Assembly (NCBI GenBank): GCA_021234155.1
Contig: JAJEKV010000058.1
Span: 7,314,992 to 7,378,991, forward strand
Direction of reading: 5' to 3'
DNA: 64,000 nucleotides
Source of the DNA: Isoetes taiwanensis
Lineage: Eukaryota > Streptophyta > Lycopodiopsida > Isoetales > Isoetaceae
Below are positions 6,183 to 38,730 of the stretch, piece after piece. The stretch's first letter is position 1. Every line of letters starts with the position of its first letter. The notes beneath the pieces are model-generated. The model had not been told where the DNA came from. It searched no databases and worked only from the letters and a program-made list of their open reading frames with translations. Position numbers and translations under genes: made by a program.

Positions 6183-7345
6183 TTTTTTTTTTTTTTTTTT
6201 GAGGGATAAAGAATTGACTTTATTTACTTTAAAGGAATGGTACAAAGCCACATGGCAGGGGTGTATCCAACTGCAAATCTGAGATGGAGATAGCTACATG
6301 GCTCCTTCTTGCACTATTCCCTTGTTCGTCCTAGTGTAATCTTAGGTAGGTGCCCCAAATTTCAACCTTTACTTCTTCTTCACTCTCGAAGACTAGCCTG
6401 AATTTTTTCAGCCTTTCATGTACTATATGTAGAAGCTGATATGGTGATATGTCTGCTTGATTCTCATCAAAGACCACGGCATTTCTCCTTTTCCATATTG
6501 ACCAGATTGTCCAGGCCCTAGCTATATGAAAGGCCACCTTCTTCATGGTGCACCATTCTAGGGGGAGGATACCCAACAACAGTTCCTTGGTACCTAGCGG
6601 GTATTCAAAGCTATCCAGACTCCATGCCCATACTACTTGCAGCTTCTCACACTCCACCAGACAATGTTCTATGGATTCTGCTCGCCTCGCACAAGGGACA
6701 TGGGGCTGACGTTGTTGTCCCATTTTCGCGACTAGTTGATTGACCCTTGGGACCCCCGTGTATCACTTGCCAGAGGAAAACATTTATCCGTGGGGGAAGA
6801 TATTTCTGCCACGCATCTCTCCATATGTTTATAAGGTTTTCCTCCGTGACTACTATATCCCATTTGGTAGGTATTGGAAGTAAACCCTGAGTCCTCAGGC
6901 TTCTGTAACTTGATTTCACAAACTTATTTGGCAAAATCGCGGGGTGCAAAACCCATGGATTTTGATCTCCTGTAGTTATAGTGTTTGGGAGTACTGTGGC
7001 CACACATTCCCATATTATTCTGTCTGCGTCCTTTAAGGCAAAGCGTACCTGAAATTCTGCCCAACTGGCTAACTGTACTCCCTTGTACCATTGAGCACAA
7101 GAATCTATTCCACAATTTTTCCACCTTTTTACGATCCTTGCATCAGCCACCATACCTAAGGGGCCTTGTTTATTGTGCAGTACCACTGGTACCCACCATG
7201 GAGGGGAAGTCTCTGCTTCGAATTTTTTGACGTCAAGCGTAAATAGCTTTTTTATGATTTGCCACGCCGAAATTAATCCCTTTCTACTCTTTATGGACTT
7301 TGCTTCTTCGAGGGCATGCTTTTGACAGTAGCACATTATATGGAT
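6183..7345 (-). mobile_element. 5'-truncated LINE with poly-A tail
   Basis: On the minus strand this is the 3' end of a plant L1-type non-LTR retrotransposon. Two overlapping frames (7336-6647 and 6723-6331) encode the C-terminal part of ORF2. It includes a zinc-binding RT-associated domain (INVFLWQVIHGG, PCPLCEAS, then after a one-base frame break ESIEHCLVECEKLQVVWAW) and a tail with AWTIWSIWKRRNAVVF. The element ends in an 18-base T-run on the plus strand (6183-6200), which is its poly-A tail. The RT catalytic domain and endonuclease are absent, as expected for 5' truncation. I could not find a target-site duplication. Confidence 0.75.
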
Positions 7346-8026: not shown

Positions 8027-8282
8027 GCCTAAACCCTAACCCTAGGCCTCTTTTCTGGCTCCAGCAGTCTGGGAACCTTATTCGCGCTCGAAACTCCATT
8101 TCGAGAACCGTTTGTTGTGGCATAGCCTAGCACAACAGCCCCCAGAGCGTGAGCGCATCAGCAGGAGTGGGAGCTACCTCGAACACTTCGAATACCATGG
8201 AGACGCCAGGATTGGGAGGGAGTGCTTCTGGAGCAGGTATGTAGAGTAGTGCTCGTGGTAGATCATCTGGAAGTTAGCACTC

Positions 8283-9908
8283 TGTGATGCTCCCCCAATA
8301 TAATATATCGACCCGGCCATATACACGGGGACTTTCCCCCCTTCCCCCGCCCGTGACAATCCATCTTGCCATGGGCAGGGCCCTCCGTCTGACCCGGGCC
8401 ATCTACGTAGAGATGCTCCAGTGAAGGACACGGAGGTGTCATTCGGCCACGCCCCGATGGCGCCCTACGCCGTGGAAGCATGAATACAAGGGTTAGCCCA
8501 CAAAGATAAATCATATATAAATAACCACCACGAAGGGTGGCGATCCATCCAAATACCAACGGCGGAGAATATGCATCTAAACTAGGAAAACACCCCAAAC
8601 CTCGGGTTTTACCCGGCTCGGACTCTAGTGAGGATCGACACGAATTTGGGCCTCAAGAGATCAGCCAGACCGAAGTCTTGGCATGGCGTTATCGGCATAG
8701 AACATCGGCTAGGGTTGTCCCTCCATCCGCCCCTCCACATTGCACACTTTGCGGATGGGTCGATTCACGCTATATGGCGCTATAGCCTTGGGAGAGACGC
8801 AAACTCTAACGAGATATCACCCGTTTGAGTCTACTCCGGGGTTCATGACGCCTGGTCCAATGAGGCGGGTGAGGAAAGCGTCCCCTTCCGGGATCACAAA
8901 GTGGTTCCATGGGTGAGCTAGAGAATACGTGCCGCATCAGCGACCCCCGCATCCGTACCCAACTTAGTCACCCTAATTCTACTCAAAGTGCAAGATGCTC
9001 CATACGGATCACACCTCTACATCCAGGGAGTGTCAGACCCATACCCGGCCCTCTACGTGACCGGCTATCAGGCCTAGCCCACTGTAGGAGTCTCAGGAGC
9101 CTTTTATGTTCGTGCAAGACCCCACCCCCACTTCACCACTGTGTCCTTTATCTGGTGCTAAGCCAGACCATAGCATCTACGACCCGGTGGTCTCTTGTAC
9201 ACAGGCCGCATCTAATGGGGATATTACAGGGCTCTATCTAGGAGCATACTACCATATATGAGCTCAGAGGTCTCTACCCCCCTTTAAACCCCTGTTTTAT
9301 GGAAGCTACCCAAATACTTCATAGATACATCAATCATCCTTAACAAAGTACCATTCATAATTGAATTGTAATCCTACTTACCACAGAAGGGTTAATTCCC
9401 ACAAAGGCAACCAAAGAAAGAGAGTACTACAAAGACTATCTTACAAAACACAAGCTAAACTACTACTAACCCGTGTTTTTTGGAAACCGATTATCGTGAG
9501 GGGCTTCCGTAGTGCCGCAACCGGGGTGGCAAAGGTGTCGACCTAATGATTGTTCGATGATTTGGTGAAGTCGACCTTGAGTTCTTGGGTGCTCAAATTG
9601 CTCCTTGGGCCGGTAGAGTCGATTAAGGTTGATATGGGGGTGGTGATCCACCTAATTGAATCCAATTAGCATTTACCATGCTGGCCAATCGAGTTTGGCC
9701 AGGTGGTGCCTTCTCAAACCATAATTAGCTTAATTATTATTAATTTCCTTAATCATAGGTTATTATCCCTAATGTTTTAATTAACATAGCTAATTAAATC
9801 CCTTTTAGGTCAACCCCCTAGGTTACCATACCACATGGTGGCATATCTATACTGGGTGACGTGTCAATGTATTTATACATGTACCGTATAAATACTTGGA
9901 ACGTTACA
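8283..9908 (-). repeat. 3' LTR of the chromovirus
   Basis: 1626 bp, bounded by TGTGATGCTCC and CGTTACA on the plus strand. It pairs with 19814-21422 over its full length, with point changes and small indels. In the element's sense it begins TGTAACGTTCC. A perfect 10-bp inverted repeat (9869-9878 and 9886-9895, loop 7) sits 13 bases inside the outer U3 end. Confidence 0.95.
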
Positions 9909-9921
9909 TTCTCCCCTCCTT
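9909..9921 (-). other. Polypurine tract of the chromovirus
   Basis: Read on the minus strand this is AAGGAGGGGAGAA, immediately followed by the TG of the 3' LTR. This is the position and composition required for second-strand priming. Confidence 0.9.
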
Positions 9922-10512
9922 AGAAGTAATGCTGTCCTCAGCATTGGGGTTAGGTACATTTATGGGATATGACATTATGAAGGAAGGTAATCCCTTATTT
10001 CCAAAGGTAATATATATAATGAAAACTTTAAAGTTGAAAACGGTTTAAGCACCGAGGTGCATTTCACATGATCATCATAGTCAAATAGTTCAAGGACCGA
10101 AGTCCAACATCAAAGTTAGAGTAACAACAAAATAAGACGTGTAGACAAAAGAAAACTGCAGAGTTCGGGCCATCAGCAACCCTCTAACATGGGCAGGTGT
10201 CGTACTGCTTACTGGCCTGCACATGTCAGTATATCAGTATATATAATTAGATTGTGGTTGAAGGGACCACCCCCTTAAATTAAATAAAAGAAAAGTCTAT
10301 CTACCGGGGAACCTATCATGTCTATGGTTTGCAATTCATTGCAGCATAAGGAATGGTCAAGTTCCCATTATAGCTGAGATGAACGCGACCTATTACTATA
10401 TGCTCTCCAAGCAAGTCGTGGTCAGGTCAACATTGACAGTACACCACGTCCTAGAGAACACAAGGTGATCCCATCATCGGCAACTATTATTATTTACGAT
10501 GCATCTACCCCT

Positions 10513-11124
10513 CTAAAGGCTACTCTTGGCAATCAAGCTCCCAAGCTTACCGCCGGCTACGGGTTTGATAGCATCGTTGATGGTGTGTCCTTGAGATTCC
10601 CGCATGAAGTCCGGATAATGCTTGTCAAGGTCTATCTTCATCACCCAAGTAGCATCCTCAACTGGTAAGTGCTTCCACTTAACCAAATATTGCAACATTT
10701 GAGTCCTTCTGGTTTGTTTATAAGCTCGATCAAGAAGAGCTTCAGGTACTATTTCCAGCTGCTCCTCTGTCATTTCGAGGAGAGTTGGAATGTCCAAAAC
10801 TTCCTCTGGATCAGGGGTGTGTTGTTTCAGAAGACTCACAAAGACCTTGTGGATCTTCAAGCGGGGCGGCAAATCCAAGCGATATGCCTGCTCTCCAACA
10901 CGCTCAATAATTTTGAACGGTCCAGCCCATCTGGGTGCCAACTTCTTGCAATTGCCAATCTTAAGCTTGGCTTGCTTTACCTTAATTTTAAGCCAAACGG
11001 ATTCACCCACCTGGAAAGCGCGTGGGGTTCTGTGCTTATCGGCTACACTCTTCTGACGACTGCATGCAGCTAATAAGTAGCCACGAACTTCTTCGACCAG
11101 AGCTTGCATCTCCAAGAGGAGTTA
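10513..11124 (-). CDS. Integrase C-terminus with chromodomain (end of pol)
   Basis: Same reading frame as the main pol segment, reached through a TAA at 11122-11124. The frame holds the GPY/F-type module of gypsy integrases (RWAGPFKIIERVGEQAYRLDLP). A chromodomain follows near the C-terminus, with the core YLVKWKHLPVEDATWV and the aromatic residues expected of the methyl-lysine cage. Chromodomains of chromoviruses are known to direct integration toward chromatin carrying particular histone marks. The protein ends about 25 residues after a HYPDFM motif. Confidence 0.85.
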
Positions 11125-11274
11125 CTGTGAAACCTCCACTTTAGAAACGGGGTTATGCCATGTGTCTGGAGTAAGACATTGATAACCATAATTTATCATG
11201 AAGGGAGACATTCTGGAAGACTCCTGTTTCATGCTGTTATAGGCGAACTCGACTAGATAAATGTAGTCTGCCCA

Positions 11275-13640
11275 TTATGATTGCTTACTCCATACATAAC
11301 TTCGCAGCATATCCTCTATAATGCGATTGGTACGTTCTGTCTGACCATCTGTTTGAGGATGATAGGCCGTACTAATAGCAAGCTTGGTTTGGATGGTGGC
11401 AAAGAAATCCTTCAAGAATGCACTTACAAATTTGGGATCCCTGTCGGATATAATAACTCGTGGCATTCCGTGCAATCTGAAGATCTCCTTGGCAAATAGC
11501 AGAGCAGTATCAAAGGTTGTATCTGTGGTACGACATGGCAAGAAATGAGCCATTTTTGACAATTTGTCGACCACTACCATTAAGGCATCATATCCACGGA
11601 GAGTTCGTGGAAGGCCCACAATGAAATCCATGGTTATTACTTCCCATTTGGCGTTGGGCACATCCAGGGGTTGCAACTCGCCCGGAATCCTTAACTGCTC
11701 AGCTTTGGTTTGCTGACACACCTGACACTGCTTAATGTACCTGGCAATGTCCTTTTTCATAGAAGGCCAGAAATAGCTGGAGCGAATCTTAAAGTAGGTT
11801 TTCATAAACCTCGCATGTCCAGCTATAGGGCTGTTGTGTGTGTCGTGGAGGATTAGCTTATGCACTCCCGAAGTCTCAGGTACACACAACTTATCCTTGT
11901 GATATAATAAGTTGCCCTCTTTCTTATACGCACGAAAGGCTTCGCGTTCCTTATCGGTGCGAGCTTCCTTAGCCAAACTATCCCAAACATCACGGAACTC
12001 CGGATCCGTGGCCAAGGTCTGCTCTATCTGTTTCCCAAACTCATTGGTGAGTGTAGAAATGGCATTACAATGGGTTCGGGTCACCAAGGGATGGCGTGAC
12101 AATGCATCCGCAACCACATTGTGCTTGCCAGGCTTGTACATAATCTCGAAGTCATACTCCTCCAAGAATTCCATCCATCTCCGCTGACGGAGGTTGAGAT
12201 TCGGCTGGGTGGATAAATAACGGAGACTTTGATGATCCGTGTCCAACTGGAATCTCCTGTCGAGAAGGTAATGTCTCCATATCCACAGGGCTCGGACAAC
12301 GGCTAACAATTCTTGATCATGGGTAGGGTATCGCTGCTCCATCTCGTTCATTTTCTTTGAATCATAGGCAATAACCCTCCCCTCCTGTATTAGGACTCCA
12401 CCGGTGGCAATCTTACTGGCATCCGTTGCCATTAGTTTATCCTTCTCAGGATCAGGCAATGTGAGAACTGGTGCTGACGTTAAGGCATCCTTAAGCTGCT
12501 GGAAACTTTCCTGAACCTCTGCCTTCCAGTGCTCCATCCAATCTTTCACCTTCTCATGCTTTGTAAGGTTTGTAAGAGGTGCTGCAATCTTTGAAAAATC
12601 CTTTACAAATTTCCGATAATATCCTGCTAATCCCAAGAAACTTCGGACCTCGAAAACATTTCCTGGAATAGGCCATTCCCTTACGGCCTCTATCTTTACT
12701 GGATCTGTAGCAATTCCCTCTGCCGAAATGATATGGCCTAAATAATCGACCCTCGGAGTGGCAAACTTGCACTTCGAGAACTTGGCATAGAGCTGATGAC
12801 GCCTTAGCTTTTGTAGGGCCAATCTAAGATGATTCTCATGTTCCTCTAGGGTTTTACTATAGATGAAAATGTCGTCAAAGAAAATAACAACAAAATCATC
12901 CAAGTATTGTCGGAAAACATCATTCATCAATCGCATGAAAGTTGCAGGGGCATTAGTTAATCCAAAAGGCATGACGGTAAACACATAGTGCCCATATCTA
13001 GTGCGAAAAGCAGATTTATGGATATCCTCCTCTTTAATCCTTATCTCATGGTACCCGGAGCGTAGATCAATCATTGAGAAGTATTTGGCCCCTTGCAACT
13101 GGTCCATTAGATCATCCGCTCTAGGCAAGGCATAGCGATTCTTGATGGTATGCTTGTTGAGTTGCCGATAATCAATACACATCCTCAACGAGCCGTCCTT
13201 TTTCTTAACAAAAAGAATAGGAGCGCCAAAAGGCGAAACACTAGGTCGAATAAAACCTAGGTTTAGTAACTCCTGAAGTTGCTTCTTAAGTTCTGCCAAT
13301 TCTGGAGGACTCATACGGTACGGGGCCTTGCTGGTAGGCTTGGTACCTGGATCTAAAGCTATTTCACATTCCACCCCTCTAAAAGGAGGAAGCTTCTGGA
13401 TTTCATCTGGAAAAAGATCACCAAATTCTCGGAGAAGGTGAGCAATCCCCTCTGGCAGGGTATCGACTACTTGCTTCTGTTTACCATCTGACTCAATGGA
13501 GGCAAGCCTAATGACGCAGAGGAGCTTTTCCTTGCGTATAGCTTTATCTAACTGCCGGATGGACATAGACTGCATGATAGGGTTGAATGGTTCACCTTTT
13601 ATAGTCACGCGGGCTCCATTAGCTGCGTTGAAGGTAACTT
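11275..13640 (-). CDS. pol: Pol: reverse transcriptase, RNase H, integrase core
   Basis: An open frame of about 777 codons. RT motifs in order are [35 protein letters not shown], and the catalytic loop as FFDDIFIYS, with Phe where YxDD is usual and both Asp kept. RNase H follows ([24 protein letters not shown]). The integrase has an HHCC zinc finger ([11 protein letters not shown]...CQVCQQTK) and a DDE triad ([28 protein letters not shown]). The first recognised start is a GTG; the frame is open a little further upstream toward the protease. It is reached from the protease frame through a probable one-base deletion near 13640. A TAA at 11275-11277 interrupts it, and the same frame continues beyond to the chromodomain. 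It is otherwise well preserved, which suggests relatively recent activity. Confidence 0.95.
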
Positions 13641-14165
13641 CCGTTTCTCATGATCTATGTTGGCTTTTGCAGATGCCAAGAATTCCATACCAACAATGAG
13701 ATCGTATTTGCCAATGTCCATCAACTCGGCACCCAAAGCAACTGGTGCACCTGGCAACTGCATCTTAAGATTGATGCGGCGGCCATGAGTATGTCTGACC
13801 CTACCACTGGCTAGAGTGACAGGCCTCGGTCGGGACCTTAATGTTTCAAGCTGTAAGACTTGAGCCATTCTAGGAGAAGCAAAATTATGTGTACTTCCCG
13901 TATCCATAAGAATTACAAAAGGCTTACTGTCTACTTGACCTATAGTGGAAATGACAGCAGGCTGACTTTCAGCATTGCCGGTTTCTATAGCTGCAAGGAT
14001 ATGAGACGCACCGTGAATGTACTCGGGAGCCTCCTCCTCGAGAGGTAGAGTCGACTCAAAATCGTCCCAATCGAGGTCGGCCATGGCCAGCTGAGATCTC
14101 TGCGTGACATAAGGACAATTGTGCATAAAGTGCCCGGGCCGCATACACCTGTAGCATGCCTTATC
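13605..14165 (-). CDS. Gag zinc knuckle and aspartic protease
   Basis: The segment opens with a CCHC zinc knuckle, [14 protein letters not shown] (spacing CX2CX4HX4C), at the C-terminal end of Gag. The protease follows, with the active-site motif [11 protein letters not shown] and a later IVGMEFL segment. It ends at a TGA at 13605, just past the point where the pol frame takes over. The zinc knuckle lies in frame upstream of the first Met, so the listed span starts before it. Function in the family: RNA packaging and polyprotein processing. Confidence 0.9.
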
Positions 14166-15284
14166 TCGGCGGAGCTGTTCTCGGACCTCTTTAGGAATAG
14201 ACTGTAAGAGGTTCCGAACTTCCTTACCGACATTGTTACGTTTATCGGCCCGTCTTTGAAAGGTGACTTTCTTTTTCTGGCGGCCATAAGAGTGCTTCTT
14301 GAGAGGGCCCGGACTTGGCGGCCGGGGTTTGTAAGGTGTGGGCCCGTGGCTGCAGTAAGGAGGCGGGGCCTTGGATCTTGGTTCTTTGGTATGTCCTCCT
14401 CGAGGCTCAATGCTTTAGCCTCAGCCTTCTCAACTGATTTCGGGTCTATGGCCTTAACCATCCGTTTGATTGATGGGGCCAACCCTTCAATATAACCCTC
14501 CACTGCTCTCTTTTCATTCATACCTAGTACATATAGCCTCAGGCGCATAAATTCATCAGTGTAGGCCTGAACTGACATACCCTTCTGCTCTAACCTATAG
14601 AAGGTCTGAATTTGTTGGCATTTGTGCGCACGAGGCACATAATGCGACTTAAAAGCTTTTGCAAACTTTTTAAACTTGCACCTGCTTCTGTCCAGATGCT
14701 TGGCTCTTGCATAGCCCTCCACCAAATATGGGCAGCTTCTGTAAGATTGGTGGTGGCAACCTTTCCTGTATCCTTTTCTGTCATGCCATAGGATTTCCCA
14801 AACTCCTTCATTTCGTCCAACCAGGACTCTGCATTCAAACCGCCTCTAGACTTCCTATCAAACTAGGCCAGTTTCCTATTTTTCCATATACTAGTTATGG
14901 CTGTATCAACCGTCTTGCGGTACTCCTTATCCCACAAGCCCCATGGTCACGGTGATCACAGGCGACTCAGGGGACACGGAAGTGGCTGATTGTGATGAGG
15001 TGGTACTTGTCCTAGAGGAACTCGGCGGCGTTTAGAATGAGGTCCCTCGTGCGAGTACGAGGGTGGTTTGGTGGAAATGGCTGCTGTGTAGGTGGACTTG
15101 GCGGTGGCGGAGGTAACTCCGGTCCGTCTTCTTGTATATGCTGGGGTGGATTGGCATGCAACACATACGCTTGCAACTCGCCTAATTGCCTCTTCATTAG
15201 CATAAGTTCCTGTTCAGGTGTTAGTCTACTGGCATTTGAGGGCGTCTGCCAAGCGGCGTTGCGGGCACCGTCTATATCCAGCAT
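13985..15284 (-). pseudogene. gag: Gag capsid region, broken by frameshifts
   Basis: Three overlapping frames (15284-15012, 14838-14590, 14725-13985) together cover a retrotransposon Gag. The N-terminus is proline-rich, with a 'TPEQELMLMKRQLGELQAY' segment before PPPPPSPP. The capsid domain follows (AAHIWWRAM; HYVPRAHKCQQIQTFYRLEQ; YTDEFMRL; VEGYIEGL). At least two frame breaks separate them. The zinc knuckle lies in the next frame. The spacing WW(R)...F...YxxEF...L(R)xxF is the classic Gag pattern of plant gypsy elements. Confidence 0.85.
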
Positions 15285-15545
15285 ACAAAAGGTGTAAGCC
15301 GACTTATGGTGACATAAGGTCTCACAACAATGCTATTTTGGATCAGTTAGAGAAAGAATACAAGAAAAAGTACAATGGCAAAAATCCTTATTACAGGTGG
15401 AAACAGTCATTCTATTATAGTTCAGTACATTGATAGTAACACAAGTTGATACAAAGATTAAGTACAAGGACAAACATTATACATTGGAGATTTAAAGTTC
15501 AACTCACCTATAACCTCATAAAATACAAAACAAAAGAGACTGAGC

Positions 15546-16011
15546 CTAGGGGTTCGCAAATGGGTACAGGATTGAATAGCGAACACTTTCACGTACGGCC
15601 CTAACGAGCTTGTATCGTGCCCAGGCCTGAACTATTACAGCTTGGTAATCTAGCGTTGGGCTAATAATAAGGAGATTGAAAAGCCTCCTTAATGCGTAGA
15701 AGATTTGCCACAGGTGGTCATTGGCGTCCTCGAAAGCTTCGTGCCTGGACATGTCCCAATAGTCCCATGTGCGGCGAAGAGTTTGCTTTAGGTCCTCATA
15801 GGCTCGTTCCCTGAGAATGTTAACTATCTCCATCCCTTTGGCTGGATCATAGGGCTCCCCTGGTGGCGCGGGTTCCATCTTGTAACCTTCGTCCCATTCC
15901 GGGTACTCCCCATACCTTTGACCATAGTCCTGGTCAGGCGGCCCTGGATCATCCCTCCTTATCAGATCGGTGATTCTCTCTTCATATTCTTCAAGTGTCT
16001 CTTCTGTAAGA
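15546..16011 (-). CDS. Accessory ORF C of the chromovirus, about 155 codons, unknown
   Basis: An open frame upstream of gag and on the same strand. It begins just after a splice-acceptor-like site (TCTATTGTCTTACAG, ending about 16012), so its start may come from a spliced transcript. The product is acidic and then helical: EETLEEYEERITDLIRRDD, a Pro/Gly/Tyr-rich middle, then RAYEDLKQTLRRTWDYW and ALRRLFNLLI. No known domain is recognised. It has the same reading phase as ORF B, from which it is separated by about 200 AT-rich bases that could be an intron. A role as an extra Gag-like or regulatory protein is a guess. Confidence 0.5.
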
Positions 16012-16226
16012 CAATAGAAATGAATATAGAACATTGAACCATTTCATTATACTCTAAATTCCAATAGATAGAAGAACGCATCATGGAGGAGACAATTTCA
16101 ATTGTATTCATGGAGACCATAGTCACAATTGACAAAAGGATGGTATATCATAACTATAGAATGGCTAGAAATTGCCAAACCAAAATTATATATGTATATG
16201 CAATACAATATGCGTGATACAATTAA

Positions 16227-17627
16227 TTAAGAGCTAGGTCCTCCCTCTTCATTTGTAGACCGAGGAGGTGGTGGCGGCGGTCGGTGTCGTAGCAAAGTCA
16301 CCCCTGGGTCTACTGTGGCAGCCGCAATGGAAACAACCTCTGGCGGATAGGCAACAACCAATGGGGCTGCCGTAAGGAGCTTCATGCTCATCCAGGGTGC
16401 AATATCTTGCCCCAAGGCTGTCAGGGCAAGATCCCGTCGTACGAGTACGTAGGTGAACGTACGATAGGGAAGCTTTTTGTGCCCGGCCAATGTGGAGAGG
16501 GCACGGAGGGTCCACCATGATGCTTCAGCCTCCAGCCCTAAATCTCGGGCTATAAAAAGAACTTGCCCCTGTCGAAAAGCTGAAAGGAAGAAACGAGTAA
16601 GGTGGTTTCCCAATACTTTCCCTTGCGGGGTCTCTGACGTGGCCACCTCCTTATCTAAGTCCATAGGGACTTCTTCCTCCTTAAGTTCCTGCTGCTCTTC
16701 CTTCAAATGAGCAGGATTATGGTATAGATCCTCTCCCTCCTCATCCGAGTCGGAGGGAACCTCGACCATATTAATGTTGGGAACATGAGGTCCCATAGTT
16801 GTAAAGGCATCCGGTGAGGGTTGAGAGGCCGGTTCCTGCATCACCAGTTCCCGTAGCCGTAGCAAAGTCTCAGCCGGCTCTATGGTCTCCTGGCGGAACT
16901 GGAGTAGCTGCTACACCTCCGGGGGAAGCTCAATGGGAGCGAAGTCGATGAAATCATCCATGCAATACTCCGCTAACTCATAAAGCACATGGTCCTTACG
17001 CCGGCGCTTAAATCCGGCCACCATGTGATAAGTCCAGATGATATCATCCAAGAGAAGATATTCTTGCCCTTAGTGATAAATAACTGGAAGGGCATCTAGC
17101 CCTGACAAGCGTGCAGCTTGTTCCCGGCGTGGTGGCATCTCCTCTGCTAATTGCTTCCAACGGGCGAAGTCGCCCATGCCTATATGCTCATCATCTCCCT
17201 CCTCAGGAGATTCACGGAGTTTGCCTTTCTCTACAGGCAAAGTTTCATCCTCAACGTATTGATCCATGAGGATGGCTAGGGCGAAGGCAACCTCAAGATA
17301 TTGTCGCCCCTGATGCTGCACAACAGGCAGGTGTTTGCCCCATCTGAGCTTTCCTTTAAGCACATTATACGCATGGGTATCACCCCCTAACATATCCCGG
17401 GCTACCTCCCGCTCTAAATACAATTGGGGAGGATCCCCAAGGGTGACACACAAAGGAAGCATCTCCTCCATGTAGAAGTCTAAGAACCCAGCATAATCTG
17501 GGTGCCGCTGCATATTAGTGATGAGGTCTAGGCGCTGGCATAGCAAGGGCCGCAACAGATCAAAGGGCACTTGCGGATCCCAATGCTCTCCATCTTGATA
17601 CCATGCGAGAAGGTCGGTGGCTGCCAT
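16227..17627 (-). CDS. Accessory ORF B of the chromovirus, about 467 codons with two stops, unknown
   Basis: A long frame starting at an ATG (MAATDLLAWYQDGEHWDPQV). It continues in a single phase to 16227, interrupted by a TAA at 17070-17072 and a TAG about 170 bases later. Between and after the stops the sequence still reads as protein (WTYHMVAGFKRRRKDHVLYE; LLRLRELVMQEPASQPSPDA), so this was probably one protein of about 466 residues. It contains an acidic stretch (VPSDSDEEGED) and a Pro-rich end (RHRPPPPPPRS). I recognise no domain. It may be a captured host gene or a family-specific gene. The codon pattern is preserved much better than in the surrounding decayed elements. Confidence 0.55.
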
Positions 17628-17824
17628 GGCGCTAGAAGGGAGGAGGAAGCAAGAAAAACAGATAAAACATTTGAAATGAACTTTGGAAATCCTTTTTAAC
17701 CCCTTTTTATTATGCTGATGTCAGCAATTTCGTATTTATCACAAAATAAAAGGTTCTTAATACAAAACAAAAAGTTTTTATTAAATCTCAGAAAAATATA
17801 TTTACAATACGGAAACTCAGCAGA

Positions 17825-18335
17825 ATATGCTAAGGACGCTCCTCAATGAATCCTGCGGGCGAGGGCTAAATCCTTAGGCATGATAGTGACCCTCTTTGCG
17901 TGGATCGCGCAAAGATTTGTGTCACCAAAAAGTGCCACTAAATAAGCCTCATGACCTCTTGGAGTGCCAAAATGGCAAAAGTGCAGGCGGAGATCGGTCT
18001 TGAACTCACGGGCAATCTCGGGACCAACCTCTGGAAGGGGGGAGCTTAGTATCGGAAGTTGGGTTGACTTACGAAACTTACGGATCTCCGTAAGGCAATG
18101 ATGATGTGTCGGTACGGTGGGGCTTCCCTGTGGAAGGCGGGGTTTGGAGGCGGCCCCCTTGATCGAGACCTGATCTTGGCCCCAACAGCTGGTGGGGCGC
18201 ATCCACCCAATCACGCCTCGGTGGGGCTCGCATTCTTGCCAAAAGCGCCGGCGGTCTTTAGTTTTTCCTTGTATTATTTGCGGATTTACGGGCCCGCGGC
18301 CTTCCTCGGTGCTTAGCGGTCGTGTGCTTTCGGTG
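17825..18335 (-). pseudogene. Histone H3-type gene (possibly CENH3-like) inside the chromovirus
   Basis: The C-terminal half reads as an H3 histone fold. [13 protein letters not shown] (alpha-N), then [11 protein letters not shown] (alpha-1), then [12 protein letters not shown] and [15 protein letters not shown], then LALARRI just before the stop. These match conserved H3 residues closely. Upstream, in another phase, lie KPHR, which in H3 immediately precedes the RPGTVALREIR segment, and about 70 residues earlier [18 protein letters not shown]. That tail is longer than in canonical H3 and has a KH where H3 has KQ, as in plant CENH3 (which begins ARTKH). At least three small indels and one TAA break the frame, so no intact histone is made. 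It lies in the sense of the element, between ORF A and ORF B. The histone identity is firm; the CENH3 assignment is inference. Confidence 0.85.
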
Positions 18336-18339
18336 GGGA

Positions 18340-19080
18340 TTAGGCCCTTCCCACTCCCGTGCCCCTTCCCTTGCGGGCTCGGCGGAATCTGCAGAGCCTT
18401 CTCCTCCTTCTCCGTTCGATCCTCTCACGCTCTTCCGGAACTCCGGGCTCTCCTAAGATCTTCTTCAACTTTGGCGAAATGTTGTCTTTGCGCTTCTGGC
18501 CGAAGAAGTTGACATAATGCCGTCCGGGTCTACGGGCCATGTCAATGCGGATTGTTATTAAATAATCAATGCTGATATCAGGGATCTGCCCCCATATGAA
18601 GCTGCGGGAGTCTTCATCCCATCGGTATGGGGGAATCTCAATCGCCCTACCATCTATGACGGCGACTCCATCCCCGAGGTACCGGTACTCCCTGCCCCGA
18701 GCCGCCATATCGGCTCGTTCTATTTCTTGGCGGTCATCCTCTCTGGCCAAGTTTCGGATGCGATCGGCCTCCCCTCTTATGTCCTCCTCCTCTGTATGTC
18801 CTTCACATTCGGGAGGGTAGAACTTAATCAGCATCATGACCAAGTCAGGTTGCTCGGCCATGGTGTAAGGGAGCTGACGGAGGTTCAGCCGGATCAAGAA
18901 TGGCTCCGAGAAGTGGTAGATGGGATAGGGGATCCTATCATTGTTCTCAAACCTGTTTACTAGCTCGTCTAGAAGTATGTCAATCAAAGCAGGGTCGGTA
19001 GCCATATTCCGAGCGATCAAAGCATAGATCTGGGCGATAGTAAGGTTAGTGGGGTCCGGAGCACTCTTGGTGTTGGCCAT
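18340..19080 (-). CDS. Accessory ORF A of the chromovirus, 246 aa, unknown
   Basis: The first open frame after the PBS, with an ATG start ([20 protein letters not shown]) and 246 codons without a break. The N-terminal 120 residues look helical ([29 protein letters not shown]), followed by an acidic/basic stretch ([21 protein letters not shown]). The C-terminus is strongly basic ([12 protein letters not shown]), a possible nucleic-acid or nuclear-localisation segment. The stop lies just where the histone-like sequence begins, and the +2 phase continues open into it, so A and the histone could once have been one fused protein. No family recognised. The unbroken frame inside an otherwise mutated element is notable. 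Confidence 0.6.
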
Positions 19081-19800
19081 GGCTTATGGCACTAAGGTCT
19101 GGAAGAACAGGCAATGGGGCGCTTGTAGCTAGGGAAGCGGGAGTGAAGGCGCTAGGGTTAGCGAGGAACAAGGGCGAAAAAACAGAGTCAGATCTGGCGG
19201 CGATGGCGGGCGTCGGTTCCGGCGGGCGAAGGCGCTTGAAGGCAAGGCGGAATAAAAAAAACTTCAACGGCCAGTTAACATAAAATAATTATACGGCAGA
19301 AATACACGGAAACATACGGTCGGGCGCCGACGGCATTATACGCGCTCCCACCGCGACTGGGGGTCGACTAAAAGCAAGCGGCGCCCGGGTTGACTTTCGG
19401 GCCCGCATTGACCAGCGGCCTGAAAGGTCGGTCGGTAAATTTGCATTTACGGGTCTCCCACCTCAAAGGCGACAAAAATCAAGCGGCGCCCGAGTTGACT
19501 TTCGGGCCTTCCCTTGACCATTTTTCCGCCAGCGACGACCGTCCTAGGGTATTTGGGGTACGCCCGATCCAATGGAACCACTTCTTCCTTCATTTAAACT
19601 ACCTACAAAAATTTATAATTCTTCCAAACCTGGGCCTCCAGTCACCCTAACTTCTTTAAACCTACAATTTCTTACTTTAACCTAACACAAAACCAAACAT
19701 CAAAGAGGACTAACAACACACTAACTTGGCCTCTTCCTAACTACCGAACTAACGAGTTAGTATTTGGTCAGTGCTATGATTTCGAGCAACCGAAATCACG
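19081..19800 (-). other. Leader between PBS and the first accessory ORF
   Basis: About 720 bp. GC-rich with two imperfect copies of GCGGCGCCCG(G/A)GTTGACTTTCG-type sequence (near 19379 and 19483 on the plus strand). No convincing coding capacity. This is where packaging and untranslated signals would be expected. Confidence 0.5.
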
Positions 19801-19812
19801 GCTCTGATACCA
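19801..19812 (-). other. Primer-binding site, initiator tRNA-Met type
   Basis: On the minus strand it reads TGGTATCAGAGC, complementary to the 3' end of plant initiator tRNA-Met. It starts one base after the 5' LTR. This is the usual primer of plant gypsy and copia elements. Confidence 0.95.
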
Positions 19813-19813
19813 C

Positions 19814-21422
19814 TGTGACGCTCCTTATATATATACGACCCCCGGCCGTATACATACGGGGACTTTCCCCCCCGTGACAATCCATATTGCCATGGGCAGG
19901 GCCCTCCGTCTGACCCGGGCCATCTACGTAGAGATGCTCGAGTGAAGGACACGGAGGTGTCATTCGGCCCACGCCTTCGATGGGCGCCTACGTTGCAGAA
20001 GCATGAATACAAGGGTTAGCCCACAGCATAAATCATATATAAATAACCACCACGAAGGGTGGCGCATCCATCCAAATACCAACGGCAGAGAATATGCATC
20101 TAAACTAGGAAAACACCCCAAACCTCAGGTTTTACCCCGGCTCAGACTCTAGTGAGGATCGATTGACGGCTGGGCCTCAAGAGATCAGCAGACCGAGTCT
20201 TGGCATGGCGTTGGCTGGCATAGAACATTGGCTAGGGTTGTCCACTCCATCCGCCCCTCCTGTGCACACTTTGCAGATGGGTCGATTCACGCTATGGCTT
20301 CGCTATAGCCTTCCGGAGACGCAAACTCTAACAGATATCACCCGTTTGAGTCTACTCCAGGGTTCATGACGCCCCGGTCCGATGAGGCAGGTCAGGGAAG
20401 CGTCCCCTTCCAGGATCACAGTGGTTCCATGGGTGAGCTAGAGAATACGTGCGCATCGCTGACCCCGCATCCGTACCCAACTTACTCACCCTAATTCTAC
20501 TCAAAGTGCAAGATGCTCCATACGGATCACACCTCTACACCCAGGGAGTGTCGGACCCATACCCGCCCTCACGTGACCCGGCCATCAGGCCTAGCCCTTT
20601 GTAGGGAGTCTCGGGGAGCCTTTTATGTTCGTGCAAGACCCCACCCCCACTTCACCACTGTGTCCTTTATCTGGTGCTAAGCCAGACCATAGCATCTACG
20701 ACCCGGTGGTCTCTTGTACACAGGCCGCATCTAATGGGGATATTACAGGGCTCTATCTAGGAGCATACTACCATATATGAGCTCAGAGGTCTCTACCCCC
20801 CTTAAACCCCCTGTTTTATGGAAGCTACCCAAATACTTCATAGATACATCAATCATCCTTAACAAAGTGCCATTCATAATTGAATTGTAATCCTACTTAC
20901 CACAGAAGGGTTAATTCCCACAAAGGCAACCAGCAAAGAGAGTACTACAGTACTATCTTACAAAACACAAGCTAAACTACTACTAACCCGTGTTTCGGCT
21001 GGAACCGTTATCGTGAGGGGCTTCCATAGTGCTGCAACTGGGGTGGCAGCGTCAGCTAATGATTGTTCAGTGATTTGGTGAAGTCAGCAACAGTTCTTGG
21101 GCGCTCAACTGCTCCTTGGGCGCTCAGCCGTGCCGATTAAGGTTGATATGGGGGTGGTGATCCACCTAATTGGATCCAATTAGCATTTACCATGCTGGCC
21201 AATCGAGTTTGGCCAGGTGGTGCCTTCTCAAACCATAATTAGCTTAATTATTATTAATTTCCTTAATCATAGGTTATTATCCCTAATGTTTTAATTAACA
21301 TAGCTAATTAAATCCCTTTTAGGTCAACCCCCTAGGTTACCATACCCCATGGTGGCGTATCTATACTGGGTGACGCGTCAATGTATTTATACATGTACCG
21401 TATAAATACTTGGAACGTTACA
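19814..21422 (-). repeat. 5' LTR of the chromovirus
   Basis: 1609 bp, the partner of 8283-9908. It starts TGTGACGCTCC and ends CGTTACA on the plus strand. Many differences from the other LTR are CG in one copy against CA or TG in the other, the signature of methyl-cytosine decay. The same 13-base offset hairpin is present (21383-21392 with 21400-21409). Confidence 0.95.
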
Positions 21423-22539
21423 CACTCCAGATGGGTTAGTATTTCGTAGCTAGAGTAGAGCCATCCTAGAACCCTTATTCAACATCTTGAACCCTAATCA
21501 AGGAACCCTAACTGTAAGTTAGATATGTATGATTAGGTTAAGATGTTCTTATTATGATTATCATGATATGATGTTATGTGATGTTGGCTGGGGGTAGAGA
21601 CCTAGAGCCATATGTAGTAGGCTCCTAGTTTAGATCCCTTAGTTCCTATTAGATGCGGCCTGTGCATAGGAACCTACCGGGCTATGGAGGCTATGATGTG
21701 ACTCAGCACTACACAATGGGGCTAGAGGCAATACGAAGGGAGGATCCCTGCCGAGCGGGGGCTACGGGGGATCCCATAGTGGGCTAGGCTTATGGTCGGT
21801 CACTTCGGGTGGGCCGAGCATGGGTCCGACACCTCTTGGGGCAATGGTGTCGCCCTACCTCTCAAGAGTTGCAAGTGTCGGCTTGGCTCTTGTTTTGGGG
21901 GGTTCAGTCGGGTACGAATCGTGTGTCGCCACGATTCTCTAGCCGCCCGTGGAACCTCTAGACCCCGGGAAAGGGAGATGCAAGCCTTCCTGCCTCGACG
22001 GGCCAGGGAGATGCAACCTGGAGTAGTCCCGATGGGTGGTGCCATGGGATTGTGTACCCGGAAGGCTAGAGTCACGCCAGAGCTTGATCTAGCCCATCTG
22101 CAAAGTATGCACAGGAGGGGCGGATGGAGTGGTCAATGCTAGCCATTGTCTATAGCCAGCTTCGCCATTGTTATGACTCAGTCTGCTCTATTTTGAGGCC
22201 TATCCAGTCAGTCTACCTCCTTATGAGTCGGAGCCACGGGTAGGAGCTCTCATGTTTTATGGCATATGATTATGTTCTTTCCAGCTATGGATATGTGGAT
22301 GAGCTACCCTTCGAGGTAGTATGATGTATTGTTATTGCTAGTTCTGACGATGTTTATGCTTCCGCTGTGATAGGAGCCCATAGGGGAAGGGCGCGCAAGA
22401 CACCTTCGTGTCCCCTTCCCGCACTATGGTGGTCCCAGAGTGCGGGATAGACGGAGGGCCCGTGCGGTCGGAGGACCGGATGGGGGATTTCCTACGGAGT
22501 GTACGGCTGGGAGCCATATATTTAGTAGGGAGCGTCACA

Positions 22540-26184: not shown

Positions 26185-27797
26185 CTAATCCTGAACTGGA
26201 ACAGCTGCATCTGCTCCTTCAGCAACATCTGGGATGATGCGAGGCGGAAGTGAAAGAGCACCATATGTAGAACTGCCTTTAGACAAGTCTTGAATGGTAC
26301 GAAGTGCTGCAAGAATACTTCTGTGGATGCTATCTAAATTCTCCTTGGGGTCATCTTCAGCAACCGCTATCTCGCTATTTCCAGATGTAGATGGAAATAT
26401 GCTCCTGAGATTCTGTTCACATTCTCGGACAAGTTTAGATAGAAGCTCTGTGGTGAAAAACGGTTGATGGAGAACACTCTCTATAAAATTCAAACGCAAT
26501 GACGATCCCATGCGTTTATCATGCTTCTTCAATATCTTGACCAAACCTGTAAAGGATGGGAGAGTTATGAAAAATCTGGACTAATATGCATAGGTAACTG
26601 TTCGGTTATTACCAGTATAATTCAAGGAGCTATAGTTTTCCAACAAAACCATTTCCCCGTATAAAGTGACAACTGCCTTCCATATATTTATCAACTCCTG
26701 ACCACTGTTCTCATCATTAGCATTCCGCCGCTCTTTTATCTTCTCTGTTCTATCCTTCAGCTCCTGCAAATAATACCAAGAACTATTACATAAACGACTT
26801 AGCGGAAACTTTCACAACAATATAATGCATGTAAAGCATCTGTGCCAAATATGCTACAGACAATAGTAACATGAAGTGCTGTGCTGCAGTTGTTCTTTCA
26901 TCATGTAAATGCCAAACATTGCATGTGAAACATCAACTTGCTGATCATTTTGTTGAGAAGACAATCTAAATTGATCAGATCAAGAATGTCCTGATTTAAC
27001 AAAAGTAAACACAACATTGTTCAATATGAGTACCACCAATGAGCATGTATTTGAAACTGTTATAGCCAAATAAAATCCGTGAAAATAAGACGGACATATC
27101 AGCGCCGTCTCATATTAGGATGAAGAAAATAGAGTACATCCAAGCATATGCATCCAAACATAAGAGTGAGGATTGTTACCTGTAGTCTAATCACATACTC
27201 CTCTTCTTTTTCCATGAAGAAATCATTGAACTTCTCGAGCTCCACATCTAACAGCTGAGTAAACTCAAACTCTCCTACTTTTCCTTCTATGTCCACATAT
27301 ATTCTTCTTCGTGGCAGATCACCATCCTCTGCTATGCTTTCAGAACTCCTGCATGTTGTTTTGTTCTCAGCATTTTCTACCTTGCTTTCTGTAACCTTGC
27401 ATGTTGTTTCCTGATCCCTTGTTTCTAACTCTTCCTTATGAAGTACCTGGTCTTTAAAAACACCCTCTAATAACTCCTCATCTCCAGCAAATTTTTCCCA
27501 CAAGCCTTGCAAATCTCCAGCCACTTTTGGTTTTGCATCTTCTGTGATGGCTTCTGGTTTGCCACTTTTCTTCCTAAGTTCTTCAACTGCCACATCCACA
27601 GCAGAGGAGACTTCTTCTTCAGAGCTTGCCCTGGAGGGACTGGTGCCTCCAAAAGCTGCTGCTACAAAACAGTCTGGTGCAGAAATGAGTTTCAACCTCT
27701 TCTTCAGACGCTTATAACTCAAAAACTTATCTTTCCAATCCGGCATCATCTCATCAATTTGACTTTGCAAGCGCTTTCCAAATTTCATCTTGCTCAA
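26185..27797 (-). CDS. SPX-domain protein (phosphate sensing), 376 aa, three exons
   Basis: Exons at 27180-27797, 26613-26763 and 26185-26546 join in phase at consensus splice sites (CAG|GTAAC; TTTGCAG|GAG; CTG|GTAAT; TACAG|GTTTG). The total is 1131 nt including the TAG stop. The protein opens MSKMKFGKRLQSQIDEMMPD and KDKFLSYKRLKKRLKL, the first SPX helix pair. The central segment is FEFTQLLDVELEKFNDFFMEKE. The basic helix LVKILKKHDKRMG supplies the lysines known to bind inositol pyrophosphates. An acidic, Lys/Glu-rich insert (residues about 50-170) is longer than in Arabidopsis SPX1-4. No EXS, RING or transporter domain follows, so it belongs to the stand-alone SPX class, which in plants binds PHR transcription factors when phosphate is ample. 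The promoter carries several PHR-type sites. Two ATGs open the frame; the second is three codons in and is the more usual start. Confidence 0.93.
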
Positions 27798-37316: not shown

Positions 37317-38730
37317 AATATTAATGGCCTAAAAATGCCATTTCTAATGAAATATTTATTAATGGTCTTCTGTGAAAGGACAGGGTTGACAGTAAACCTT
37401 ACAAAAACCAAAATAGTCATCTTCGGTTACAGGAACAGACACAGACCTTTCAGGTATATGGGGACAGAACTAGAGGAATCAACAGAGTACAGGTACCTGG
37501 GGTATGACTGACGCACATAGCACAGGGAAGTGGGCAAAAGGCGCAGATGCGAGATTTCAATCATCCATTGGGAGTTATTTCAATATGAAAAACTTCTGCA
37601 ATAAAAGCAGAATAATCGACTGGGAGATCAAGTGTTACTTGTTCAGTGCAGTGGTCGCGACAACGCAATTATATGGGGCTGAAGCTTGGGGATCGGGCTT
37701 AACAGACAAGAAGTGGGAAAAACAGGAAGGGATCCTCAGACAGTGGCATAAACAGGAATTTAAGGTGCGAACAAACACACCACTAACAGCCATGATATAC
37801 GAGACAGGGCAAAAACCAATGGAGGTGAGAGCTTACTATCAGATACCTAATGAAGGACAATACAGGAGGGAACTCAGGGAAACTGTCAAGCATCGTAATC
37901 AGCGAGTCAGCAAAGTCACACATACTTACAGGCAGTGGATGGTTTAAGGATGTGGCGATGTGGACCAGAGAAATGGGAATGAATCTGAGTGATCTGGTAA
38001 ATGAGGGGAAATGGAATGAGGACTGGGCAGACAAGGCAACACGATCATGGCTGCAAAAGCACACAGGACCCAAGACACTCTGGCTTATGACAGTCTTCAA
38101 TCCAGAACAGCAGATAGGACAACATATGTACCGAGACAACCTGCTAGGAAAGGCCAGAAGGGACACTCTGGCGAGATTTAGGATGGGGAGTCACGATCTA
38201 AGAATTGAAAAGGACAGATGGCAGAAAATAGAAGATGACCGGATATGTAGAATCTGTGACACTGGGAAAGTGGAGGATGAGAACCACCTGCTCAATGAAT
38301 GTCCAGTATACGGAGACATCAGAAACAAATACAGAAACATAAGGTGGGGACAGCCAATGCACACCCTGATGACAAGGGTAGAAACAATGAGAGATTTGGC
38401 AGATGAAATCCAGGAGATGATGACCAAACATCGGGAAATACACAAAGAAAAAGGGATTTTAATTTGAACTGCCCAAGAGGCGGGTCATAAACGCCCACAA
38501 AATGCTCAGCTAAAAGCTGATTGATAACGACACACCACTGCACGGCCATGAAGCCGATTCAAAGCGGGGTGCCGGTACTAATAGAAACCAAGTAAGCCTT
38601 CAGAAAAGGCTACAATAAACCAGCGTGATGTGCTACTAGCGCCTGTTAGGGAGCTTGCCCATGCTACACAAGTCCAGGGGCCTTAGGGCACAAGGGACAA
38701 TAATTTCTATTCTATTCTATTCTATATATT
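37317..38730 (+). mobile_element. 5'-truncated LINE with (TTCTA)n tail
   Basis: Encodes the thumb and C-terminal part of a non-LTR reverse transcriptase in three phases. First FCERTGLTVNLTKTKIVIFG and STEYRYLGY; then IDWEIKCYLFSAVVATTQLYGAEAW; then ARRDTLARFRMGSHDLRIEK followed by a zinc motif CRICDTGKVEDENHLLNEC. The RT catalytic motif itself is missing, as is the endonuclease. After the stop at about 38465, a 3' UTR of some 235 bp ends in a run of TTCTA units (about 38703-38726). The C-terminal motif is unlike the L1-type LINE fragments elsewhere in this window, so it is a second LINE lineage. Confidence 0.85.

Follow-up and report, generated by a model that had tools for sequence, protein, structure and literature searches.

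A chromovirus family of Isoetes taiwanensis carries a gene for a histone H3 fold that appears to be maintained by purifying selection

In Dothideomycete fungi, a hAT DNA transposon carries histone H3; the abstract of this study describes all H3 copies but the original as RIP-inactivated in Pseudocercospora fijiensis and many copies as potentially active in Pyrenophora (PMC6710886). Single histones are also encoded by viruses, namely a bracovirus H4 with an extended tail and a giant-virus H3, which are described in the available text as likely to enter host nucleosomes (PMC9145170). Among chromoviruses, a survey of Tcn1-like elements in non-seed plants has one entry for Isoetes histrix in its accessible portion (PMC2864245). 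Gypsy elements make up 10.7% of the Isoetes taiwanensis assembly, and the word histone is absent from the available main text of the Isoetes genome literature examined, including the paper with this figure (PMC8566536); it is equally absent from the accessible text of a paper on plant gene capture (PMC13317346). No retroelement-encoded histone was found in the PMC literature searched, and an earlier description elsewhere is possible.

The DNA analysed here (hereafter the window) is a stretch of 64,000 nucleotides of I. taiwanensis (GCA_021234155.1, contig JAJEKV010000058.1). A minus-strand LTR retrotransposon was delimited within the window (Table 1). LTRs, a target-site duplication, a primer binding site (PBS) and a polypurine tract (PPT) were all present, as were a Ty3-type gag, the PR-RT-RH-INT order (by Pfam, with the rve core of this copy below its curated cut-off) and a chromodomain (PF00385) at the integrase C-terminus. 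The element is a chromovirus (i.e. a chromodomain Ty3/gypsy LTR retrotransposon), and its PBS is one that we take to be of the initiator-Met tRNA type. Aligned by BLAST over 1657 columns, the LTR pair showed 80 mismatches and 65 gap positions; a MAFFT alignment with fewer gaps gave 140 differences over 1596 sites (K2P 0.094), indicating that the insertion is not very young. In sister copies, described below, the LTR pair of L016 showed 36 mismatches and 21 gap positions over 1647 columns and that of L017 showed 79 mismatches and 60 gaps over 1656 columns; by these differences, L016 is younger than the window copy and L017 is of approximately the same age. The LTRs of L024 had six mismatches over the 240 bases covered (piece L061), and no LTR match was found in the fetched 3' piece of L027 (L062). 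Rfam and tRNA scans of the 64-kb window gave no matches. Elsewhere in the window, judged by eye, a minus-strand frame (27099-27797) resembles a plant SPX-domain protein, and two further frames (6647-7336 and 37850-38467) look like the C-terminal zinc-finger regions found in LINE reverse transcriptases.

Table 1. Features of the histone-carrying chromovirus, in positions of the window.
Feature	Position	Strand	Basis or comment
LTR retrotransposon, whole element	8283-21422	minus	13.1 kb; Isoetes taiwanensis window
Target-site duplication CACTC, element 5' side	21423..21427		sequence inspection
5' LTR, minus-strand TGTAACG...GTCACA	19814..21422	-	BLAST LTR pair; edges from sequence
Primer binding site (PBS) TGGTATCAGAGC	19800..19813	-	sequence
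ORF1 region: orphan N-terminal domain, linker, tail and H3 fold; frame-broken here	17830..19080	-	one open frame in sister copies
ORF1 orphan N-terminal domain, open here	18517..19080	-	alignment; no Pfam family, no homologue
ORF1 linker and basic tail, frame-broken here	18127..18516	-	alignment with sister copies
ORF1 histone H3 fold, frame lesions here	17830..18126	-	Pfam, solved H3 chains
ORF2, orphan, ~480 aa in sister copies; split into 17070-17627 and 16227-16865 here	16227..17627	-	alignment
ORF3, orphan, ~150 aa after conserved 3' splice-site-like sequence at ~16000	15546..16034	-	alignment
gag (Ty3_capsid, Retrotrans_gag), frame-broken in window copy	13985..15284	-	Pfam
Aspartic protease	13605..14144	-	PF08284
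Reverse transcriptase, RNase H, integrase	11275..13608	-	Pfam; rve below its curated cut-off
Integrase C-terminus (SH3_Tf2-1) and chromodomain	10513..11115	-	PF24626; PF00385 E 1.9e-08
Polypurine tract (PPT) AAGGAGGGGAGAA	9909..9921	-	sequence
3' LTR	8283..9908	-	BLAST LTR pair; edges from sequence
Target-site duplication CACTC, element 3' side	8278..8282		sequence inspection

An initial sequence-only reading of the window had placed an H3-type gene inside a chromovirus, in the element's own sense and between the PBS and gag. Pfam and solved H3 chains agree with this placement: the minus-strand frame at 17843-18214 matched the Pfam Histone family (PF00125, E 6.4e-15) and, over the fold, solved H3 chains (best E 2.7e-24). 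The fold of the window copy is interrupted by frame lesions, and a stop at ~17830 aligns with the H3 stop of the family. Two upstream pieces assigned to the same protein do belong to it, as KPHR lies at ~18126 and the tail stretch aligns with the tails of sister copies (EHTTIKHRKKVVARKSG in L024, EHTTVKHRRKAVARKSG in L027). The long, unusual tail was also borne out, the usual H3 tail not being recognisable. The histone had further been described as lying between two other accessory frames. The frame at 18340-19080 is the N-terminal half of ORF1 and not a gene of its own; it looks separate because a frame lesion splits ORF1 in the window copy. The H3 segment of the window is one decayed copy of a larger family gene.

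The extent of this family was examined using a Histone profile search of the genome (1,658,258,908 bp, 1110 contigs), in which the best 150 of 8705 candidates were scored, all at >144 bits. The first 15 rows were full-length H3 matches, and the eight of these that were fetched (L001-L008) were all canonical H3. These host H3 genes have an intronless coding region and mix H3.1- and H3.3-type residues (A31, Y41, S or T87, L90). From the other 135 scored rows, 20 loci (L009-L028) were fetched with a preference for long frames. Every one of them contained ORF1 with the H3 fold, which comes first among the coding regions behind the 5' LTR and is followed, in the same orientation, by one or more other genes of the element. 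In tblastn comparisons over 4.5-4.9 kb per locus, ORF2 was found downstream of ORF1 in 19 loci, gag in 17, and ORF3 and protease-RT in 16 each, with ORF2 being the sole gene found downstream in L021. Matches to the window LTR lay upstream of ORF1 in 18 of the 20 loci, the exceptions being L023 and L028. Locus L012 is without ORF2 and ORF3, has gag 266 bases after ORF1 and retains an open ORF1 with the H3 fold. A tally of the search table gave open frames of at least 400 aa for 36 of the best 150 Histone matches.

Copy numbers were approached with a degenerate coding pattern for ten residues, which had 1,263 exact matches in the genome (660 + 603), a count that includes host H3 genes and a pattern whose arginine codon also admits serine (AGY); the reversed control had none. 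Thirty sites were examined (the first ten listed and 20 from between the 13th and 71st entries), and 29 were best matched by the family ORF1, L042 by the fold alone. The whole fold was open in seven and broken in 23 of these 30 sites, which had been sampled without regard to fold score. Most family copies are decayed, as is usual for transposons. The remaining site, L031 (G000:C1:1019132), was best matched by host H3; it lies outside the element family, with a short H3-like frame and divergent flanks, and may be an exon or a pseudogene belonging to a further host H3. An octapeptide pattern for ORF2, which does not fit subfamily C (see below), had 421 genome matches. The decapeptide sites are listed completely as far as contig C445. 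Of the 25 ORF2 sites within this range, 13 had the decapeptide 422-464 bp upstream, in the same orientation, and 12 had no exact decapeptide upstream. Other copies of the histone-carrying element therefore exist, some with an intact frame, and a one-off capture is ruled out by the 20 sister loci together with the 1,263 decapeptide matches. Insertion of a processed pseudogene by a non-LTR route is likewise ruled out, as the N-terminal domain and the fold share one frame in 20/20 copies; in L010, just the later part of the N-terminal domain lies in the frame of the fold.

ORF1 encodes 400-459 aa from Met in 19/20 copies, L010 being without a start. An orphan N-terminal domain of ~200 aa is followed by a charged linker, either Q-rich or E/R-rich, a basic tail and the H3 fold. 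The fold could be aligned without gaps, has 98 residues to the stop in 19/20 copies (L014 reads past the usual stop) and is complete and of canonical length (PF00125 E 2.7e-42). Three subfamilies were distinguished by their N-termini: A (M[PS]RFKLT; 11 copies including the start-less frame of L010), B (ME..K[QG]V; seven copies) and C (MANTKSAP; two copies), to which the window copy also belongs. Mean identities of the N-terminal domain were 76-83% within and 29-34% between subfamilies, with the folds being nearly the same. An additional sampled copy, L036 (G000:C13:154140), has a divergent ORF1 with TARKSG in its tail and is perhaps a fourth subfamily. Relatives of the N-terminal domain were sought in Pfam, the PDB and large protein databases, with none found; neither the N-terminal part of the window ORF1 nor residues 1-330 of a full-length ORF1 had protein homologues. 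Scans of IMG/VR with the H3 ORF, pol, the ORF2 homologue and the ORF1 alignment detected no relatives, and neither did a PLSDB search. Single-sequence AlphaFold models were of low confidence (pLDDT 47.6 and 56.4) and gave no usable structure.

ORF2 and ORF3 are conserved orphans between ORF1 and gag (15546-17627 in the window; loci L009-L028). ORF2 had no Pfam match above the cut-off and no PDB match, and profile searches of the PDB with ORF2 and ORF3 gave nothing convincing. A homologue of ORF2 (P0002), a 471-aa protein with 42% identity over 95%, was encoded on a 2953-bp ENA contig (best 7999 candidates scored). Directly before ORF3, TTGCAG occurs in 12 of 14 located sequences (not in L019 or the window, whose site is at ~15995-16005), and this acceptor-like sequence suggests spliced expression of the accessory ORFs. 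No ATG precedes ORF3 in the aligned A and B frames; the frames of subfamily C and the window do have an ATG, shortly before the acceptor-like sequence. Ahead of ORF2, subfamily A copies repeatedly show TATAAA-like and TTAGGGTTT motifs, so that separate expression of ORF1 is possible. TATAAA and TTAGGGTTTCAT were seen repeatedly in the ORF1-ORF2 interval of L009-L011, L016 and L017, all of subfamily A. An AATAAA follows the H3 stop in L027 (subfamily C) and in the window (17640-17830). Such signals would fit ORF1 and ORF2 being distinct transcription units.

The tail preceding the fold was compared with the H3 tail using two segments from each of eight copies. None of these 16 segments clearly exceeded shuffled sequences, at least 93 of 2000 shuffles scoring as high in each case; a canonical N-terminal tail was thus not found, and we do not treat tail positions as homologous, since the similarity is not significant. 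The idea that proline stands in for K9, before T/A-G-G-K, was considered and dropped for the same reason. A VARKSG/TARKSG sequence, like the context of H3K9, is kept in subfamily C and L036, and the ARKS context is absent from subfamily A (VKSG, VKGG, RGG) and most of B. A motif, [KR]-[SG]-G-x-x-Y-[KR]-x-x-L, is kept in 19/20 tail rows (not in L021). Judged by these motifs, the tail is not uniformly 'unmodifiable' across the family, subfamily C having ARKSG.

The captured gene had been considered nearer to the centromeric variant, CENH3, than to canonical H3. Several features are shared with centromeric histones: the tail is long and non-canonical, A107 also occurs in the CENP-A portion of a chimera of solved structure, and E102 and P60 of subfamily A match a rice CENH3 reference sequence that is doubtful. 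The fold itself points to canonical H3. Representatives of A, B and C were 85, 86 and 89% identical to host H3, as compared to 60, 60 and 64% for human CENP-A and 54-59% for Arabidopsis CENH3 (both provisional reference sequences). Loop 1 has the canonical FKTDLRFQ without the insertion that lengthens this loop in CENH3. In a maximum-likelihood (ML) tree of the fold with H3 and CENH3, both plant CENH3 sequences separated from the rest at 99/97 support, the references being provisional (the rice one doubtful); human CENP-A sat on a long branch whose placement was not resolved. A genome scan with the provisional Arabidopsis CENH3 fold, in which the best 150 of 7028 candidates were scored, gave 101.6-103 bits for the 15 full-length canonical H3 rows and 93.4-100.5 bits for the other 135, so that the element folds scored below canonical H3 against a CENH3 query. 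No host CENH3 gene was recognised among these best 150 candidates. Loop 1, the identities, the tree with its provisional CENH3 references and the CENH3-query scores all speak against a centromeric origin, and capture of a CENH3 is highly improbable.

A second suggestion had been that the histone is simply a transduplicated passenger, i.e. a transduced host H3 coding sequence hitch-hiking as in many plant gene captures. The broken frames of the window copy and of 23/30 sampled sites are what such a passenger would show. Nei-Gojobori counts on the 20 copies gave, for the fold, within-subfamily pN/pS ratios of 0.068 for A (55 pairs), 0.031 for B (21 pairs) and 0.011 for C (one pair), values that are biased low as copies were taken from the best Histone scores with long frames preferred. 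Between subfamilies, the ratio was 0.103-0.159 at a pS of 0.77-0.87 (at or near saturation), and against host H3 it was 0.11-0.15 at a saturated pS of 0.88-0.90. Preservation of the fold at such between-subfamily synonymous divergence is not explained by the sampling bias. The N-terminal domain had ratios of 0.18-0.22 within and 0.57-0.67 between subfamilies; in seven copies each, ORF2 had 0.14-0.26 within and 0.48-0.51 between, and ORF3 had 0.14-0.25. The H3 fold is the most conserved measured part of the 5' region of the element. One host H3 and all 20 copies are identical at 65/98 fold positions, which a neutral passenger could not have kept across near-saturated synonymous divergence, and the 36 open frames of at least 400 aa among the best 150 matches are also at odds with hitch-hiking. 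These patterns of substitution indicate an element-encoded H3 variant that is maintained by purifying selection and is not a passenger, with most copies being dead. A passenger origin is accordingly contradicted for the family as a whole, for which it has very little probability, and is true of the dead copies. Shared derived residues (A107 and S/G105 in 20/20 copies, I89 in 19/20 and L124 in 18/20) suggest one capture, and a single origin of the family H3 fold is likely; the combination of A107 with G or S at 105 did not occur in the host H3 genes read. In the ML protein tree the element folds did not form one clade; a forced clade had a 3.2 lower lnL and was not rejected (p-AU 0.28).

Marks on the H3 tail largely carry the silencing of plant transposons. 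Residues of the fold were compared at positions that we take to be contacts of nucleosomal H3, and 16/21 DNA-contact and 13/14 H3-H3' bundle positions were invariant in the host and all copies. On this conservation, the family probably encodes, as a gene of its own, a nucleosomal H3 variant. We propose that a chromovirus ancestral to the family acquired its H3 coding sequence from the host and that the ORF1 product would pair with host H4, forming H3-H4 tetramers, and enter nucleosomes via the conserved H3-H3' and DNA surfaces. The N-terminal domain and the non-H3 tail would thereby be brought into chromatin. Variant nucleosomes, whether on the DNA of the element itself or at its target sites, could form chromatin without the K9 and K27 silencing substrates of the H3 tail and/or chromatin that is recognised by element proteins, with the outcome that the element would escape silencing or mark its insertion sites. 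This full picture, of a long-standing chimeric H3 (orphan effector domain, non-H3 tail and canonical fold) in host nucleosomes that would be unmarkable by silencing enzymes in the usual way or read by a chromodomain, is plausible at somewhat below even confidence. Anti-silencing use of the variant, taken on its own, is put forward a little more tentatively; this use of chromatin is favoured because it best fits the biology of plant transposon silencing.

Two other roles for the protein were considered. The H3 protein could be deposited in, or mimic, host chromatin and be recognised by the chromodomain of the integrase, thus steering integration. An integrase-linked chromodomain is indeed present, VARKSG/TARKSG in subfamily C and L036 could serve as a target and a tail motif recurs in 19/20 copies, but the ARKS context has not been kept in A or in most of B, and such targeting is rather unlikely. 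Alternatively, ORF1 may contribute to the virion or pre-integration complex. In such a role, the fold would serve nuclear import by binding the element's cDNA or host histones/chaperones, and Gag would be bound by the N-terminal domain. ORF1 lies in the same element and the same sense as gag and pol, and the E105 to S/G and T107 to A changes in 20/20 copies affect positions that we take to be near a surface used by chaperones. Retention of the H3-H3' four-helix bundle and of most DNA-contact residues goes beyond the needs of mere DNA binding, making a particle component more doubtful still. We therefore prefer incorporation into host nucleosomes, by which these elements may alter the chromatin that normally silences them. 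If true, an element equipped with its own H3, one that differs in its tail and has an additional domain, would represent a direct counter-move against silencing and a natural tool for probing what the H3 tail contributes to silencing. As the family is numerous and partly intact and the plant genome is public, the question is testable now.

Histone capture, so far a matter of DNA viruses and DNA transposons, would be extended to retroelements by this family. Like the fungal hAT element, the Isoetes chromovirus appears to have taken up an H3 coding sequence from its host and multiplied it; the former is a DNA transposon, whereas the latter is an LTR retrotransposon whose H3 fold forms one protein with an orphan domain and appears to be under purifying selection (PMC6710886). 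With the viral histones it shares a parasite-encoded single core histone close to that of the host, but those are encoded by DNA viruses or virus-derived particles and not by a retroelement, and an N-terminal domain of ~200 aa is unmentioned in the accessible text (PMC9145170). Bs1 and other gene-capturing plant LTR retrotransposons have similarly transduced host coding sequence; the Bs1 segments are not full-length according to the portion available, whereas the Isoetes domain persists across three anciently diverged subfamilies (PMC13317346). The gag-PR-RT-INT-chromodomain order is that of plant chromoviruses, from which the element differs in size and content: SM-Tcn1, as described in the part of the survey available, measures 5.7 kb and has no genes other than gag and pol, and the Isoetes element, at 13.1 kb, has three additional sense-strand ORFs ahead of gag (PMC2864245).
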